Source: Chromatiales bacterium
GTDB taxonomy: Bacteria > Pseudomonadota > Gammaproteobacteria > Steroidobacterales > BM003
NCBI GenBank assembly: GCA_029864735.1
Contig: JAOTSW010000006.1
Coordinates: 1 to 33,470, forward strand
Length of the DNA stretch: 33,470 nucleotides
Reading direction: 5' to 3'
A program made the position numbers and the translations under genes. The notes beneath the pieces were generated by a model. That model had not been told where the DNA came from. It made no database searches and saw only the letters and a list, made by a program, of their open reading frames with translations. This document shows positions 22,944 to 33,082 of the stretch, one piece after another. Position 1 is the stretch's first letter, and each line of letters begins with the position of its first letter.

Positions 22944-25900
22944 ATGAACAAAGAGTTCATCAATATCGTCGGCGCAAGTCAGAACAACCTCAAGCAGGTA
23001 GATCTGAAGCTTCCCCTGAACGAGTTCATCGTGATCACTGGCGTCAGTGGATCAGGCAAGTCATCCCTGGCCTTCGACACGATATATTCCGAGGGCCAAC
23101 GGCGCTACGTGGAGACCTTCTCCCCCTATGCGCGCCAGTTCCTGGATCGCATGGACAAGCCGCAGGTGGAAAGAATCGAGGGCATCCCTCCGGCAATCGC
23201 CATCGACCAGACCAACCAGGTGCGTACCTCCCGATCCACCGTCGGGACCATGACCGAAATCAACGACCACCTGAAGTTGTTGTTCGCCCGAATGGCCAGC
23301 CTGTACTGCAGTCGCTGCGCAGCGCCCGTGCAACGTGACAGCGCGGAAAGCATCCTCGAAAACCTGCTGTCCCACTCACAGGGCAAGCGCGCCATCGTTA
23401 CTTTCCCCGTGCAGATTCCACACAATTTCAGTGAAGAGGAAATTCGCGGGTTTCTCAATGCCCAGGGATACACCCGGGTACACCAGCGCCGGGAACAGCA
23501 ACTGGACGTGGTGCAGGATCGCCTGGCCATAGAGGAAAAAAATCGGGCCCGGCTGTCCGAGGCCCTGGAAGCGGCGCTGCACCGGGGACTGGGACACGTG
23601 GCCGTGTTCTGGCATGAAAAAGACGACAAGGCTCAGAAGTTCTCCACCGAATTGCACTGTCCTGCCTGCGACCTGGACTACGAAGATCCCAATCAATCTG
23701 CCTTCTCTTTCAACTCGCCAATAGGCGCATGTGAAAGCTGCCGTGGGTTCGGCCGCACTATGGGCATCGACTACGACCTGGTCACTCCGGATACAACCCT
23801 GACCCTGGCCAACGGGGCAATAAAACCCTTCCAGAGCCCCAGCTTCCGCGATTGCCAGAAAGACCTGGCCCGCTACGCAAAGCGACAGAAAGTGGCCCTG
23901 GACGTGGCCTGGCAAGACCTGCCCGAGCAGCACAGGCAATGGGTTATCGAGGGGGAGGGAGGCATCGACTCCAAGCGATGGTATGGCGTCAAACGCTTCT
24001 TTAAATGGCTGGAGTCAAAAAGCTACAAAATGCATATCCGGGTCTTGCTGTCCAAGTACCGATCCTATGACCGCTGCCAGTCCTGCAATGGCGCGCGACT
24101 GAAAACCACGTCCCTGTTATGGCGGATAGGCAACCATCGTGTCGGCTCCCGGGTGCTGGCGCCGCGTCGGGTATTTCGACCAGTGGCCGTGCAGTGGTCG
24201 GAACAGGCCCTGGAACAGATGCCGGGACTGTGCCTGCACGATGTCATGGGAATGCCCATCACACAGCTGTCGGAATTCTTCCAGGAACTGAACAGGCAGG
24301 AGAAAAATGATGAGGCCACCAGCATGTTGCTGGCGGAGATCATCAACCGCCTGACCTACCTGTGTGAAGTTGGCCTGGGCTACCTCACCCTGGACCGGCA
24401 AAGCCGCACCCTCAGCGGTGGCGAAGTACAGCGCATCAACCTCACCACTGCCCTGGGCACCTCGCTGGTCAATACCCTGTTCGTTCTGGATGAACCCAGC
24501 ATCGGCCTGCATCCCCGGGACATTCATCGGATTGTCGGTGTGCTGAAGAAACTCAACCAGGCCGGCAATACCCTGCTGGTCGTGGAGCATGATCCCCAGG
24601 TAATGCTGGCTGCGGACCGGATTATCGATATGGGCCCGGGGCCGGGTGCCGCAGGCGGGCAGGTGGTTTTCAACGGCAGTCCCTCGCAATTGCTACGCTC
24701 CAGAAAATCTCTTACTGCCAGCTACCTCAGGGCGGAACGTTCCGTCGCCGGCCGCATACGCACACCGATGGAAGCGCCGACCGAAAATAACTGTCTGGAA
24801 GTCCGGGGCGCCAGGGAACACAACCTGAAGAACATCAAGGTAAAAATCCCGTTGGGCAAAATCGTTTGCCTGACAGGAGTGAGCGGGTCAGGAAAATCCA
24901 CCCTCATGGATGAGGTGCTCTACCGCGCCCTGACCAAGCTCAAGGGCAAACCCAAGCTGGTCCCCGGAGACTATGACGCCTTGCTAGGTCATGAGCAGAT
25001 TTCCGAGGTGGTCATGGTGGATCAATCCCCCATCGGCAAGACTACCCGTTCCAACCCGGCGAGTTTCGTCGGCGCGCTCACTCCTGTGCGCAAATTATTC
25101 GCCGCCGAACCCCTGTCCATGGAACGCGGCTACACGGCCGGCAGTTTCAGCTTCAATTCAGGTAATGGCCGCTGCCCTGCCTGCGGCGGAAACGGTTTCG
25201 AACACGTGGAGATGCAGTTTCTCAGCGATGTGTATCTGAGATGCCCGGACTGCGATGGCCGTCGCTTCCGCGACGAATTACTCGAGGTGAAGTTACTACC
25301 CGGACCCCACAGCAATACCGGGCCCTGCTCAATCGCCGATGTGCTGGAGATGACCGTAGACCAGGCCCTGGAGTTCTTCTCTGACCAGGCGGATATCCAG
25401 AAACTTCTCGCCCCCCTGGCGGAGGTGGGCCTTGGCTATGTGGCCCTGGGCCAGCCGGTGCCAACCCTCAGCGGTGGAGAGGCACAGAGGTTGAAACTCG
25501 CCGCCCATCTTGGCAAGTCCACCGGCGGCAAACAGGGCATGTTGTTCCTGTTCGACGAACCCACCACGGGCCTGCATTTCCAGGATATCGAACGGCTGCT
25601 GGGCGCCATGTCCAGGCTTCGCGAACAAGGTCACTCCCTGCTCATCATCGAACACAACCTGGACGTTATCGCCAACTGTGACTGGCTTATCGACCTGGGA
25701 CCCGAGGGTGGCGACCAGGGCGGACAGGTTTTGTTTGAAGGCACGCCGGGAGAGCTTGCCGCGAGCGGTCTGACCTACACCGGGGAGGCCCTGGCCGACT
25801 ACGCCCGGGATCTTGAATCCCTGGGCAGAAACCTGGTCAAGACCAGGGCAACCGGCAAACCAACATCGACCACCTCCGGAAATATCGAGATCAGGCACGC

Positions 25901-28484
25901 CCGGGAACACAACCTGAAAAACGTGGACATCTCCATACCCCGAAACCGCATGACGGTGGTCACCGGGGTTAGCGGCAGCGGCAAGAGTACGGTGGCATTC
26001 GACATTCTCTTCGCCGAAGGGCAGCGTCGTTACCTGGAATCGCTGAACGCCTATGCAAGACAGTTCGTGCAGCCCTCCAGTCGCGCCGATGTGGACGCCA
26101 TCCACGGGGTACCGCCCACGGTCGCCATTGAACAGCGCACCAGCCGGGGCGGGCGCAAGAGCACCGTTGGCACCATGACCGAGATTTATCATTTCTTGCG
26201 ACTGGTATTCGTAAAGCTGGGCATACAGCACTGCCCGGACTGCAATATCGCCATACAGGAACAAACACCGGAGCTCATCCTTGCCGACCTGCTGCGACGC
26301 TACAAGGGCAAGAACATACAACTTCTGGCGCCGATGATTTCTGCTCGCAAGGGGTATTACACCGAGTTGGCAAAATGGGCAGCGGCCCGGGGCTTCAGCG
26401 AATTGCGCGTCGATGGCGCCATGCTGCCAACCGCACCCTGGCCACGACTCGACCGATTCAAGGAACACGATATCGACCTGCCGGTGGCCAAGTTGCTGGT
26501 CAGCGCATCCAGGGAATCCGAATTGAGGGACGCCCTTGCCAGGGCGCTGGACCTGGGCAAGGGCATCATCAAACTGCAGGTCCTGTCGGTCAAAACCGGC
26601 AAGAGCGGCGCTGAGCGCCTGTACTCGAGCAAGCGTGCCTGCCCCGGCTGCAGTCGCAGCTTCCCGGAACTGGATCCGCGAATGTTCTCCTACAACTCAC
26701 GCCAGGGCTGGTGCAAAACCTGCTTCGGCACCGGGGAGAAACTTGCCGATTTCGACGAGGAGCAATCCGGCGAGGAAGGCGCCTGGCTGGAGCAAATCGA
26801 ACACGCACCCTGCCCCAGCTGCCAGGGACAGAGGCTGCGTCCGGAAACCCTGGCGGTACGTTTCAAGAATCACAACATCGCTCACTACACCTCCATGAGC
26901 ATTGGCAAGGCCCAACAGCTCTTCGAGGGAATGAAACTCAAGGGACGAGAGGCCAGTATCGCCAGGGACGCCATGCTGGAGTTGCTGGACCGACTTCGGT
27001 TCCTGCACCAGGTTGGCTTGTCTTACCTGAGCCTGGACCGTTCCGCGCCTACCCTCAGTGGCGGAGAGGCCCAGCGCATCCGGTTGGCAGCCCAGCTGGG
27101 CTCGAACCTGCGAGGCGTGTGCTACATCCTGGATGAACCCACCATCGGCTTGCATGCCCGGGACAACCTGATGTTGCTGGACACCCTGGAAGCCTTGCGT
27201 TCCAAAGGCAACACCGTGGTAATCGTGGAGCATGACGAGGACACCATCCGGCGGGCCGACCATGTGATCGACCTGGGTCCGGGCGCCGGCGTAAGGGGTG
27301 GCCAGGTAGTGGCAAGAGGAACCCTGGCCCAGCTACGTCGCAACCCGGAATCCATAACCGGGCGTATGCTGGCCAATCCCATGATTCACCCGGTGCTGGG
27401 GCAACGCCGCCTTGGCAATACGCTGAAAAAGGACTCGGCCTGCCTGGAGGTTCGCAAGGCCAGTCTGCACAACCTCAAGCAGGTGAACCTTCGACTACCC
27501 CTGCAGTCCCTGGTCTGTGTCAGTGGCGTAAGCGGCAGCGGCAAGAGCACCCTGATCCGGGACGTGCTGTACAGGAACCTGAAACAGCGGGTTGGTCGCA
27601 GCAAGCGGGGCAAGAAAGCTGCGTTTATCGGCTGTCAGCAGCTCTCCGGCTGGGAGCAAATTGATCATGTGCTGGAAGTTGACCAGACGCCCATAGGAAA
27701 AACGCCGCGCTCCTGTCCGGCAACCTATGTCGGAATTTGGGACGCCATACGCAAGCTGTTCGCCGGAACCGAGGAAGCCCGACTGCGGGGCTTTACCGCT
27801 GGCAGATTCTCTTTCAACACTGCCGGGGGCCGCTGCGGCACCTGCGACGGACAGGGTCTGAGAAAAATAGAGATGAATTTCCTGCCGGACGTGCGGGTGG
27901 TTTGTGAAACTTGTAATGGCTCACGCTTCAACCGGGAAACCCTGGAAGTGCATTACCGGGAAAAGAACATTGCCCAGGTGCTGGCCATGAGTATTGACGA
28001 GGCCCTGGATTACTTCATCGCTATTCCAAAAATCCACCGGACCCTGCAGTTACTCCAGGACGTAGGGCTGGGTTATCTGACCCTGGGGCAGCAAAGTCCG
28101 ACCCTGAGTGGCGGTGAAGCCCAGCGTATAAAGCTGGTCACCGAACTGGCCAAGGCGAAACCCGTCATAGAGATTCCCGGTCGGGCCGCAGTGAGCTCCC
28201 CCACCCTGTACATCCTGGACGAGCCTACCGTCGGGCTTCACATGGCCGATGTGGAAAAGCTGGTGCACGTACTGCACAGACTTGTGGATGCGGGTAACAC
28301 GGTCCTGGTTATCGAACACAACCTGGACCTGATTGCCGAGGCAGACTGGGTAATAGATATGGGGCCCGAGGGCGGCGATGGCGGAGGCCGCATCATTGCC
28401 CAGGGGCCGCCCGAAAAAATAGTGCGGTCGCAGCGCTCTGAAACTGCAACCGCTCTGATTCCCTTGCTGGGGCGTACTGCCTAG
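22944..28484 (+). CDS. Double-length UvrA-like ABC ATPase
   Basis: This 1846-residue protein is two UvrA-like units in one chain. Four Walker A loops (GVSGSGKS/T) are at residues 33, 645, 1008 and 1528, and four ABC signature motifs (LSGGE) at 490, 842, 1371 and 1721. Each half has EGQRRY, RSTVGT or KSTVGT and CxxC zinc-finger segments. Standard UvrA is about 940 residues with two P-loops and acts as a homodimer in nucleotide excision repair. This paralogue is a fused dimer, known in several proteobacteria as 'UvrA paralog of greater length'. It probably binds damaged DNA, but interaction with UvrB is not established. It follows rnd. Its stop shares CTAG with the convergent symporter gene. 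Confidence 0.95.
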
Positions 28485-29854
28485 GACTCGGGAGGCAGGT
28501 TCTTCTGCCTGTCCAGGAACTCCCGGGTTTCCCTGGCGGCAACGCCACTAAGGAGCAACAGTCCAACCAGGTTGGGCAGGGCCATCAGCCCGTTCATCAC
28601 ATCCGAGAACAGCCAGACGAAATTCAGGCTGTAGATCGAGCCCATAAAGGCAGCCCCAATATAGGCCAGCTGATAAGGCATCACTGCCTTGATTCCGAAA
28701 AGATATTCGATACTGCGTCCACCGTAATAACACCAGCCAATCATGGTAGAGAAGGCAAACAAGGCCAGGCAGACAGCGATCACAACTTGCCCGACAACAC
28801 CGGGCATCGCCGAGGCGAAAGCCAGCTGGGTCACGGCCGCGCCATTTTCACCGCTGGTGAAAGCGCCCGTGGCAACAATTGCGATGCCGGTAAAAGAGCA
28901 CACCACGATAGTGTCAATGAAGGTCTGGGTCATTGAGACCAGGGCCTGCCGAACAGGTTCCCGGGTCTGGGCAGCGGCGGCAGCGATGCCCGCGCTTCCC
29001 AGGCCTGACTCATTGGAGAAAATGCCTCGGGCCACGCCAAAGCGCATTGCCTGGGCAATGGTCGCACCCAGGAAACCACCCGCTGCCGCAGAGCCGGTGA
29101 AGGCGTCATGGAAGATCAGGGCCACGGCATCCGGCAGCGCAGCAGCATTGACCACCAGCACGTAACCACAGGCAAGCATGTAAACCGCGATCATGATGGG
29201 CACCAGGAAGCCTGTGACCCGTCCAATGGACTTGATACCACCCAGCACTACGGCGGCCAGGGCTACGGCAATCAACAGGCCGGTAATCCATTCCTCGATA
29301 CCAAAGGCATTATTGATCGCATCGGCCATGGAGTTCGACTGCACCATATTGCCGATTCCGAAGGCGGCGATGGCGGTGAACAAGGCAAACATCGCGCCCA
29401 GGGTCTTGCCCAGGGCCTTGTTACTGATACCACGCGACAGGTAGTACATGGGCCCACCCGCCTGCTCGCCCTTCTCATCGGTAATCCGGTATTTCACCGA
29501 CAACAACGCCTCGGTGTACTTGGTCGCCATGCCCACCAGGCCGGTCATCCACATCCAGAACAGCGCCCCCGGACCACCCAGGGCGATAGCAGTCGCAACA
29601 CCAACAATGTTGCCGGTACCCACGGTTGCCGCCAGGGCGGTCATCAGTGCCTGGAAATGCGAGATATCACCCTCAGCGCCCTTCTCCCGCCTTACAATCA
29701 ACGCGGTATACAGCGCCGGCCACAGGTGAGTGAACTGCAACCCCCTTAGCCTGATGGTTAGAAAAAGGCCGGTAGCCAACAGAAGGGGGATAAGCAAATA
29801 AGGCCCCCAGATAAACGAGGAGGCAACATTCAGCCAGGCTGTCAGTTCTGTCAC
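28481..29854 (-). CDS. Sodium:alanine/glycine symporter (AGCS family)
   Basis: This inner-membrane secondary transporter is likely to import small neutral amino acids with Na+. It has 457 residues with about eleven hydrophobic segments. Characteristic stretches are [26 protein letters not shown], the [10 protein letters not shown] segment, [13 protein letters not shown] and [10 protein letters not shown]. An ATG at 29869 would add five residues but lacks a Shine-Dalgarno. The in-frame GTG at 29854 has GAGGA 8 bases upstream and starts MTELTAWLN, so I prefer it. It diverges from the B12-binding gene and converges on the UvrA-like gene with a shared CTAG stop. Confidence 0.94.
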
Positions 29855-30023
29855 AGGGTGAGTCCTCATGGTGAATTGATTAATTATTCATCCCGGCATA
29901 CTCCAGTAATTCACGCCACAATTGCAAGTCTGCCCGGTGAAATTCATCGTCAAAAGTGAATCCACAAGTGCATCCCTGACGAAAATTCTTCATGACACAC
30001 CGCAACAAGCAGGACAGGTAAAA

Positions 30024-31094
30024 ATGTTCGAAGCCGATCATTTCGCAGCCCGGATCTTGAAAGAGGGCAAATCAGGGTATGCAGGATTTGCAGCCGCCCG
30101 TTTACTGCAGGACGCACCGGAGTTTCACCAGCGCTATGGTGCGAAGGCCCTGGCGGGGTGGAAGGACAACCTGGCCCACCGCCTGGAAGAGATTTCCGTT
30201 GCGCTGGACACGGGGCATTCGGAATTCCTGCTGGCTGACATCAAGTGGGAAAGATTGTCGTTCCAGGCAAGACAATTCCCCGAAACAGACTTGGCAAAGA
30301 GTCTCGAAAGCCTTGCCAGCGTGCTGGGTGAGAGCCTGCCGGAAAAGGCCCAGGCATCCGTTTTAGGCCTGCTCGACCAGGCCCGGAAGTCCTTCGAAAC
30401 CTCCGTGCTGCCCACGAATTCCTACCTGGACCCGGCAAAACCTCTTCATCGTCATGCCATGAAATTCATGCAAACCGTGCTGGATGGTGATGTCAGGAAA
30501 GCAGTCTCGGATCTGCAAGAGCTCATGACAGGGGATACTGGCCCTATCGACCTGGCACAAGGCGTTATCGTCCCCGCACAAAAAGAGATTGGCAGGATGT
30601 GGCACAACGCCGAGGCGACGATTTGTGAAGAGCACCTGGTGACCGAGGCATGTCTGCAAGCCCTGATCGCCATCTCCCACAGCTGCAAGGCAAAGCCGGC
30701 CAATGGAAAGACGGTCATGCTCGCCTCGGTTGCTGGGAACCAGCACGACCTGGGCATTCGCCTGCTTGGGCTCGATTTCCAGATTGAAGGCTGGCGCGCT
30801 ATCAACCTGGGCACTGATATGCCCGCCAGGGAAATTGAAGCCGCCGCACTCAAGTACCAACCCGAGTTGGTGATTCTCTCCGCCGCCTTGAGCGTTCAGC
30901 TACCCGCTCTTGAACAGGCAGTTCAAGGCATCAAAGACGCCCTGGCGGAAAAGGCATTTATCCTGATCGGCGGGCAGGCCCTGTCAGGCCTGGACAGGGA
31001 AGCCCACCTGTTTGGTGCGAACGCGACGGGTACATCCCTGGAGCAAGCCAGGGACATTGGCCAGCGACTGCTTGCGGGCGTGAACCCCGGCTAG
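30024..31094 (+). CDS. Stand-alone B12-binding protein with CarH-type photoreceptor signature
   Basis: This 356-residue protein has an N-terminal helical region (1-~165, family not recognised), a B12-binding helical cap and a Rossmann B12-binding domain. The cap reads W193-H194 followed by E203-H204, fitting W-x9-E-H of the CarH light sensor; Thermus CarH uses W131, H132, E141 and H142. The domain's cobalt-ligand motif reads N-Q-H241-D-L-G, where CarH has E-x-H177-x-x-G and methionine synthase D-x-H-x-x-G. SAALS and IGGQAL supply the remaining B12 motifs. There is no MerR DNA-binding domain. I use the ATG at 30024 (AGGACAGG upstream) and not the 34-codon extension. It may signal light or B12 status through a partner; enzymatic carrier use is the alternative. 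Confidence 0.87.
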   Translation: MFEADHFAARILKEGKSGYAGFAAARLLQDAPEFHQRYGAKALAGWKDNLAHRLEEISVALDTGHSEFLLADIKWERLSFQARQFPETDLAKSLESLASVLGESLPEKAQASVLGLLDQARKSFETSVLPTNSYLDPAKPLHRHAMKFMQTVLDGDVRKAVSDLQELMTGDTGPIDLAQGVIVPAQKEIGRMWHNAEATICEEHLVTEACLQALIAISHSCKAKPANGKTVMLASVAGNQHDLGIRLLGLDFQIEGWRAINLGTDMPAREIEAAALKYQPELVILSAALSVQLPALEQAVQGIKDALAEKAFILIGGQALSGLDREAHLFGANATGTSLEQARDIGQRLLAGVNPG

Positions 31095-31099
31095 CAGAG

Positions 31100-32998
31100 C
31101 TACTTATCTCCGGCGTAGCCGATGGTTCGCAAGGAATCACCAATCTCCCGCAGGATAGCCGGATCATCAATCGTGGCCGGCATCTTCCACGGCTCTGAAT
31201 CAGCGATCTTGCGCATGGTTCCGCGGAGAATTTTTCCTGACCGTGTTTTGGGCAGACGATTCACCACCACCGCCTTCTTGAATGCAGCAACCGGACCTAT
31301 GCGTTCCCTGACCAGCGCCACGACCTCGGCCACCACATCGTCAGGATTTCGATCCACCCCGGATTTCAGCACCAACAATCCAAGCGGCACCTGGCCCTTC
31401 ATTTCATCGGCCACACCCATGACCGCGCATTCGGCCACATCAGGATGACCCGCCAGCACCTCTTCCATGCCACCGGTAGACAAACGATGGCCGGCGACAT
31501 TGATGATGTCATCGGTGCGCGACATCACGTGGGCATAGCCGTTGGCATCAATCATCCCGGCATCGGCGGTGAGGTAGTAACCCGGGTACTCCGCCATATA
31601 GGCCTGGTACCAACGCTTTGGTGCATTCCACAGGGTCGGAAACGCTCCAGGGGGTAGCGGCAATTTCACCACCAGGGCGCCAATCTTGTCACTCTCGACC
31701 TGCTTCCCGGACTCATCCAGCACCTGCAGGTTCCATCCGGGCACCGGCTTGCCCGCCGAGCCATGTAAGGTGGGGAACTGCTCCAGGCCAAGACAGTTTG
31801 CGCAAATGGCCCATCCCGTCTCTGTCTGCCACCAGTGATCCACCACCGGCACAGCGAGTTTCTCCTCGGCCCACTCCAGGGTAGCCGGATCACTGCGCTC
31901 GCCGGCCAGGAACAACGACCGTAGCGAAGAAATATCGTATTTCTTGATGAAGGTCCCGTCCGGGTCCTCCTTCTTGATCGCACGGAAGGCGGTTGGCGCT
32001 GTGAACAGCACATTCACCTTGTGTTCCTCGATCACTCGCCAGAACACCCCGGCATCGGGCGTGCCCACCGGTTTGCCCTCAAACAGGATGGTCGTGTTGC
32101 GGTTAAACAGGGGTGCGTAGACGATGTAGGAGTGGCCCACCACCCAGCCCACGTCCGAGGCGGCCCAGTAAACATCACCCGGTTGGACGTCGTAAATATT
32201 TCTCATGCTCCAGGTCAAGGCAACGGCGTGTCCGCCGTTGTCCCGCACCACGCCCTTGGGCTCGCCGGTGGTACCCGAGGTGTAAAGAATATAGAGAGGG
32301 TCTGTCGCCTCCACCGAGACACAACCGTGAGCCGTGGCGGTGGCCATGCATTCCTCCCAATCCAGGTCCCTGCCTGGAATCATGGACGCAGCTTCCTGTG
32401 GGCGTTGCAGCAACAAACAGAAATCAGGTTTGCACTCGGCCATTTCGATCGCCTGATCAAGCAAGGGCTTGTACGCGATCACCCTGCCCGGCTCAATGCC
32501 ACAGGAGGCAGTCAACACCGCCTTGGGCGCCGCATCAGTAATTCGTACCGCCAGCTCGTTAGCTGCGAAGCCGCCAAACACCACACTGTGAATCGCGCCC
32601 AGCCTGGCACAGGCCAGCATCGAAAACGCGGCCTCGGGGATCATCGGCATGTAGACAATCACCCGGTCACCCTTGCCCACCCCCTTTTCAGCCAGCACCC
32701 CGGCAAGCCGGGCCACCTGGTCCTGCAATTCAGCATAGGTGTAGGAGCGCTGTTTACCGGTCGCCGGCGAGTCGTACACCAGGGCCAGCTGGTCCCCAAA
32801 ACCGGCTTCCACATGCCGATCCACCGCGTTATAGCAGGTGTTTAGTTTACCTCCGGCGAACCAGTGATATTCCGGTGCGCCAGAATCATCCAGAACCTTG
32901 TCCCACTTCTTGTCCCAGTGGATGGCCTCCGCCACCTCGGCCCAGAACCCTTCCGGGTCATCCAGGGAACGTTGGTAAGTCTGTTGATAGGCACCCAT
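31100..32998 (-). CDS. prpE: Propionyl-CoA synthetase / acetyl-CoA synthetase family (PrpE/ACSS3-like)
   Basis: This cytosolic AMP-forming acyl-CoA synthetase activates a short fatty acid (propionate most likely) with ATP and CoA. It has 632 residues. The ATP-binding TSGTTGEPKG is at 240-249. GVVRDNGGHAVAL, SDVGWVVGHSYIVY and FEGKPVGTPDAG match PrpE/ACSS3 more than Acs. WWQTETGW and RTDDIINVAGHRLST follow, and PKTRSGKILRGT near the end holds the acetylatable lysine. The start at 32998 has GAGGAG upstream; a 17-codon extension is not family-like. Its stop is 5 bases beyond the convergent B12-binding gene. No other propionate-pathway gene is visible in the window. Confidence 0.92.
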   Translation of the reverse strand: MGAYQQTYQRSLDDPEGFWAEVAEAIHWDKKWDKVLDDSGAPEYHWFAGGKLNTCYNAVDRHVEAGFGDQLALVYDSPATGKQRSYTYAELQDQVARLAGVLAEKGVGKGDRVIVYMPMIPEAAFSMLACARLGAIHSVVFGGFAANELAVRITDAAPKAVLTASCGIEPGRVIAYKPLLDQAIEMAECKPDFCLLLQRPQEAASMIPGRDLDWEECMATATAHGCVSVEATDPLYILYTSGTTGEPKGVVRDNGGHAVALTWSMRNIYDVQPGDVYWAASDVGWVVGHSYIVYAPLFNRNTTILFEGKPVGTPDAGVFWRVIEEHKVNVLFTAPTAFRAIKKEDPDGTFIKKYDISSLRSLFLAGERSDPATLEWAEEKLAVPVVDHWWQTETGWAICANCLGLEQFPTLHGSAGKPVPGWNLQVLDESGKQVESDKIGALVVKLPLPPGAFPTLWNAPKRWYQAYMAEYPGYYLTADAGMIDANGYAHVMSRTDDIINVAGHRLSTGGMEEVLAGHPDVAECAVMGVADEMKGQVPLGLLVLKSGVDRNPDDVVAEVVALVRERIGPVAAFKKAVVVNRLPKTRSGKILRGTMRKIADSEPWKMPATIDDPAILREIGDSLRTIGYAGDK

Positions 32999-33082
32999 GG
33001 CGGACTCCTCAAGCAATATCGGTAATCGAGACAAGCCGGGGCTGAACACGCTTTAACCCGGCAAAAGAAGATCTCAAAGATT

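Follow-up and report, generated by a model that had tools for sequence, protein, structure and literature searches.

The window, the whole stretch of 33,470 nucleotides from a Chromatiales bacterium analysed here, encodes a probable B12-dependent photoreceptor, stand-alone and of the photocobilin/photoglobin type, with a predicted N-terminal globin-like domain and a C-terminal CarH-type adenosylcobalamin (AdoCbl) domain. The initial annotation had read it as a stand-alone light or B12 sensor with an unrecognised N-terminus; this reading is borne out in part, for the CarH-type AdoCbl domain, its complete residue set and the lack of a DNA-binding domain, and the N-terminus proves to be recognisable.

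30024..31094, + strand: gene for the globin-B12 protein, 356 aa, with ATG at 30024 and stop TAG at 31092-31094

The ATG at 30024 is the start matched by the starts of homologues; an upstream TTG at 29922 is not matched. The gene is 87% identical to its sister gene (L004), with a dN of 0.078 and a dS of 0.47, and this comparison indicates purifying selection on both domains. Of 296 genomes searched within the order, 75 had matches and at least 39 of these contain full-length homologues; the conservation counts below rest on an alignment of 42 full-length sequences, window protein included. A class-wide search of 369 genomes added five more distant globin-B12 proteins (L099-L103), which form a separate, fully supported branch from the window clade in the tree. 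The window protein itself lies on a long branch and has the unusual residues D72 and H52. No relative of it was found in the viral contigs scanned.

The cobalamin domain and its light-response residues

Residues 147-350 constitute a CarH-type B12-binding domain, with the following features.

30462..30698, + strand: helical cap, residues 147-225 (Pfam B12-binding_2 match at 150-215, E=2.7e-11; present in 42/42 members)
30708..31073, + strand: Rossmann cobalamin-binding domain, residues 229-350 (Pfam B12-binding match at 230-326, E=1.9e-12; present in 42/42 members)
30600..30605, + strand: W193-H194, the Ado-stacking Trp and the bis-His upper-ligand His (CarH W131-H132 in the 5c8a alignment)
30630..30635, + strand: E203-H204, corresponding to CarH E141-H142 (5c8a alignment)
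30738..30746, + strand: N239-x-H241, the lower axial His, with Asn replacing Asp/Glu (residue counts in the 42 sequences)
30810..30824, + strand: G263xxxP267, fourth element of the light-response signature (G and P invariant; signature from PMC11796333)

The residues first picked out from the sequence are present as described, with E203-H204 lying ten residues past the Trp of W193-H194 and H241 lying 48 past it, and alignment to Thermus CarH (5c8a) upholds the proposed equivalences (W193 to W131, H194 to H132, E203 to E141, H204 to H142 and H241 to H177). The window protein thus shares all Ado-capping, bis-His and lower-ligand residues of Thermus CarH/LitR. The Asn at position 239, which had been singled out as a departure from the usual Asp/Glu, does lie opposite the usual Glu in the 5c8a alignment; since Asn is found in 36/42 homologues and Asp in the other 6/42, it is a family trait and normal for this family. 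The signature described for light-responsive cobalamin domains with SignatureFinder (GxxW, EH, GxxH and GxxxP; PMC11796333) is complete, as G190xxW193, E203H204, G238xxH241 and G263xxxP267.

W193, E203, H241, G190, G263 and P267 are invariant in the 42 full-length homologues, which come from many genera, and such conservation makes the residue set more than a chance resemblance. Position 194 is His in 38/42 and Gln in 4/42, and position 204 is His in 38/42 and Arg in 4/42. AlphaFold models were too poor for use (pLDDT 42.3 for the full protein, modelled with one relative as input, and 46.0 for the N-terminal domain alone), so the residues are assigned from alignments with solved structures. 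From it we infer that the window protein would bind AdoCbl, carry out CarH-like photochemistry and reach a bis-His state.

The MerR-containing systems are more distant. CarH and LitR have a MerR DNA-binding domain, whereas the window protein has none and its N-terminal domain is of globin type; the CarH profile score is far below those of the photocobilins, and the TransRegCarH model gives 63.9 bits against a cut-off of 400. CtMerR (8JBS/8JBT) is the best single-sequence PDB match (6.1e-16) and shares the light-response signature, but it has a MerR-type DNA-binding domain and an Arg at the bis-His position (PMC11796333), where the window protein has His.

The Pfam domains B12-binding and B12-binding_2 are also common to proteins of the MetH/MtbC type, and the protein could in principle be a corrinoid methyl carrier or a mutase subunit. 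This is very improbable and was rejected on curated-model scores and the W/EH set: every curated corrinoid/MetH model scores far below its cut-off, and of the B12-binding proteins found in the own genome, the other two (MetH and a methyltransferase corrinoid protein) lack the Trp and Glu-His. A mutase or methyltransferase partner, which the initial annotation had named as the observation that would tell against a sensor, does not lie beside the homologues examined. The gene for the corrinoid protein (L002:1102-1908, + strand, in G000:C238) adjoins a DUF1638-like gene, named by eye, which suggests methylamine or related methyl-group use in this organism.

The cofactor appears to be within reach of the cell. 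On a single contig of the own genome, a PduO-type adenosyltransferase gene lies about 2 kb from a cobalamin riboswitch, and AdoCbl is therefore plausibly made from imported cobalamin.

Several other B12 proteins were noticed in relatives. The central ORFs of L106, L107, L108, L110 and L111 encode separate proteins that consist of a cobalamin-binding domain only, with no evident DNA-binding domain. They have a Trp motif of the GNRWHRGE type (GDRWERGE in L111) and a GERHELG/GERHEMG motif, and are candidates for a second class of B12 sensors without DNA binding. Two MerR-type proteins resembling CarH/LitR by eye (L112:1160-2080, - strand, and L113:1137-2060, - strand) coexist with the globin-B12 protein in G070 and G054.

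The N-terminal globin-like domain

30024..30452, + strand: photoglobin-type (bilin-binding-globin-like) N-terminal domain, residues 1-143 (N-terminal profile, hhalign)
30168..30170, + strand: N49, in the place of the bilin-contact Asp (SasPcob D270; alignment, PMC10979010, PMC10151467)
30246..30248, + strand: W75, aligned with the bilin contacts SasPcob W296 and AbPcob W289; invariant

The initial annotation had the MerR domain replaced by an unrecognised region of about 165 residues. There is indeed no MerR Pfam match, and a Pfam search of the window protein gave nothing credible in the N-terminal part; the region is about 140 residues long, however, and its profile matches the photocobilin globin domain. 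Among all PDB chains, the best matches of the N-terminal profile (A2) are to the C-terminal biliverdin-binding globin domain of SasPcob (8j2w/8j2x, E=1.7e-7), with further matches to the globin domain of AbPcob (8j2y, 0.0035) and allophycocyanin beta (0.046). In hhalign, the N-terminal domain of the clade matches those of the canonical globin-B12 proteins L099-L103 at 99.1% (E=7.6e-19), and Pfam Phycobilisome matches occur in 3/42 members (best 2.7e-4). The full-length profile ranks SasPcob first (1.7e-44, in two stretches), followed by AbPcob (6.4e-35), CtMerR (5.6e-33), CarH (7.2e-21) and MetH (about 1e-18). Whether the full-length profile or that of the globin domain is used, photocobilins are the best PDB matches, and by sequence profile the window protein is a bilin-type globin domain fused to a B12 domain, with the domain order reversed relative to SasPcob.

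SasPcob (8J2W/8J2X) and AbDPcob (8J2Y) share with the window protein the CarH-type AdoCbl domain and the bilin-type globin domain (PMC10979010), and SasPcob likewise has no DNA-binding domain. The globin domain is N-terminal in the window protein and C-terminal in SasPcob. Photocobilins have been grouped by whether the AdoCbl domain is at the N- or the C-terminus (PMC10979010), and further such fusions were reported with SignatureFinder (PMC11796333); the globin-first, B12-second order is already known. The bis-His position is Gln in SasPcob and Tyr in AbDPcob; in the window protein it is His, like CarH. It also differs from both in having Asn at the D/ExH position and in its genomic context.

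The bilin contacts are kept in part. Paper and PDB numbering were reconciled by matching residues (H108 and W296 in SasPcob; L252, W289, L294 and R297 in AbPcob). The Asp that contacts the bilin in SasPcob is replaced by N49 in the window protein, and in the clade position 49 is Asp in 0/42 members and His in 29/42. Position 46 is Trp in 41/42 (W46 in the window protein), where some canonical members have the Cys of the CxQD motif described for photoglobins (PMC10151467); the window protein accordingly has neither the bilin-contact Asp nor CxQD. L099-L103, which share its domain order and length, keep the Asp at 49, unlike the window clade, and at position 194 they have Gln (L099-L102) or Phe (L103) where the window protein has His. 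L101 has the motif in the form CLQD, and a histidine-kinase-like gene, named by eye, follows it.

The protein might nevertheless be a fully functional photocobilin, whose N-terminal globin would bind biliverdin non-covalently, as in SasPcob and AbPcob, and add red-light sensitivity. The bilin-contact-aligned W75 and R83 are conserved (42/42 and 40/42), and AbDPcob, with His in place of the Asp, retains some biliverdin binding, at about 20% occupancy (PMC10979010). We consider this reading unlikely, if with some real chance of being right: all 42 clade members have replaced the Asp that the more distant globin-B12 proteins keep, and the heme oxygenase family PF01126 has no match in the own genome, its genus mates or G003, leaving no evident biliverdin source. 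Heme oxygenase was also tried as a discriminator of bilin-keeping and bilin-losing clades, and failed. Among the 39 genomes with full-length clade members PF01126 has two matches, G011 over the cut-off and G106 below the curated cut-off, and its absence does not discriminate because only 1/5 of the genomes with canonical globin-B12 proteins has a match.

Loss of the Asp speaks against biliverdin binding and not against kinship, since AbDPcob, a founding photocobilin, also lacks it. The window protein is therefore filed as a relative of the photocobilins, not as a proven photocobilin. Biliverdin binding by its clade is doubtful; the bilin chromophore of the globin domain has probably been lost or altered, and the main role of the domain is probably structural or in binding a partner.

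Gene neighbourhoods of the window gene and its relatives

28481..29869, - strand: sodium:alanine symporter family neighbour (E=1e-137; context only)
29870..30023, no strand: intergenic region between the divergent symporter and photoreceptor genes
31100..33049, - strand: acetyl-CoA-synthetase-type AMP-binding enzyme, convergent, 5-bp gap (context only)

A survey of whether homologues lie beside regulators, which had been proposed for this gene, gives a divided answer: about 40% of sampled relatives adjoin photo-oxidative-stress genes (UfaM/CFA synthase, DUF1365, FAD oxidoreductase) or an ECF sigma gene, while the window gene is solitary, with no photostress or regulatory gene adjoining. The order of symporter, photoreceptor and acetyl-CoA-synthetase-type genes is kept in the sister species (L004). 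No match to a sigma-70-like promoter was found in the intergenic region upstream of the photoreceptor gene. Elsewhere in the window (22944-28484, + strand) lies a gene for a UvrA-type protein of 1846 aa in which ABC ATPase stretches recur; it is apparently a tandem UvrA.

UfaM/CFA-type synthase, DUF1365 and FAD oxidoreductase genes occur together within 8 kb in 9/41 loci from two families (f15 and f5), same-genus loci not being independent, and these loci often also contain an SDR, an NmrA-like protein, DUF427 and DUF1295. With one DUF1365 per genome of roughly 3 Mb, about 0.5% of 16-kb stretches would contain it by chance. An ECF sigma gene lies within 6 kb in 8/41 loci, in 7 of these within 2 kb, with the same non-independence of same-genus loci; in L044 and L046 folE (GTP cyclohydrolase I) stands beside it. 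In Pseudomonas mendocina phrB, an SDR, an FAD oxidoreductase, ufaM and folE are light-induced near class II LitR genes (PMC9758184), and the singlet-oxygen RpoE-ChrR regulon of Rhodobacter includes genes of such types (PMC7074977).

In five loci an ORF of 84-103 aa directly follows the ECF gene, usually overlapping it by about 4 bp, and the five align with one another.

L046:6974-7240, + strand: small ORF after ECF sigma gene
L044:6458-6769, + strand: small ORF after ECF sigma gene
L055:9172-9429, - strand: small ORF after ECF sigma gene
L056:8485-8739, + strand: small ORF after ECF sigma gene
L070:7904-8161, + strand: small ORF after ECF sigma gene

From their size and position, our guess is that they encode small anti-sigma factors. 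Six other loci (L051, L052, L058, L068, L071 and L073) have an RND-type efflux pump gene directly upstream of the photoreceptor gene, five of them with a membrane-fusion-type gene as well; these genes were named from the look of their sequences and their similarity to one another.

DUF1365 was not found in the own assembly and is present in two genus mates and G003; its absence may be an assembly gap. In the sister species G018, L083:3420-11857 (+ strand) contains genes for a DUF4397-like protein, a CFA-type synthase, a DUF1295-like protein, a lipocalin-like protein, an FAD oxidoreductase, DUF1365 and a UfaM-type protein, mostly named by eye. This DUF1365 cluster lies apart from the photoreceptor gene of G018.

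AerR/PpaA is a B12-binding regulator without a DNA-binding domain that acts through a partner. The window protein could similarly be a light-independent sensor of AdoCbl (B12 status) or redox state that works by protein interaction, and its position among metabolic genes (symporter, acetyl-CoA synthetase) would suit such a role. AerR (7te2) does match the family profile, but weakly (E=5.8e-7), far below the photocobilins and CarH, so that it is not the closest match as membership of AerR/PpaA would imply. A light-independent sensor is made quite improbable by the conservation of the full set of CarH-type Ado-capping residues and by the location of many relatives in photostress clusters. Proteins resembling AerR/PpaA by eye were noticed in L109:1327-2202 (- strand), L114:1078-2016 (- strand) and L115:896-1843 (+ strand).

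Proposed mechanism and significance

As a B12-dependent photoreceptor, the window protein would hold AdoCbl in the dark between H241 below and W193, E203 and H204 above, stabilising a head-to-tail dimer. Green or blue light would break the Co-C bond, and the adenosyl group would leave. H194, the residue present in most members, could then ligate the cobalt in a bis-His state as in CarH, and the dimer would rearrange. Because there is no DNA-binding domain, signalling is expected to proceed by protein-protein contact, probably with photo-oxidative-stress regulators such as an ECF sigma factor. Photocobilin domains in isolation are able to regulate a diguanylate cyclase in trans (PMC10979010). 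In relatives with an ECF sigma gene nearby, the most attractive candidate for a partner is that sigma factor or a regulator of it. The loss of the bilin, the partner and the output are all inferred. In a fuller scenario, which is tentative and rather unlikely, the clade would have given up the bilin, would rely on bis-His chemistry of the CarH type and would control, by direct contact, an ECF sigma factor together with the small protein encoded by the overlapping downstream ORF. If true, a sigma factor of the photo-oxidative-stress response would be under a light switch that is based on B12 and works without a DNA-binding domain.

The photocobilins were described recently, and this clade is a branch of them that has received little study. 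The repeated neighbourhoods tie these stand-alone proteins to photostress genes and ECF sigma factors, so that specific partner tests are possible. The apparent swap, with the bilin contact lost and the bis-His residue present, would show what role the globin domain has once its pigment is gone, and in which cases B12 is enough by itself. The clade could also supply a green-light switch that works by protein contact instead of DNA binding.
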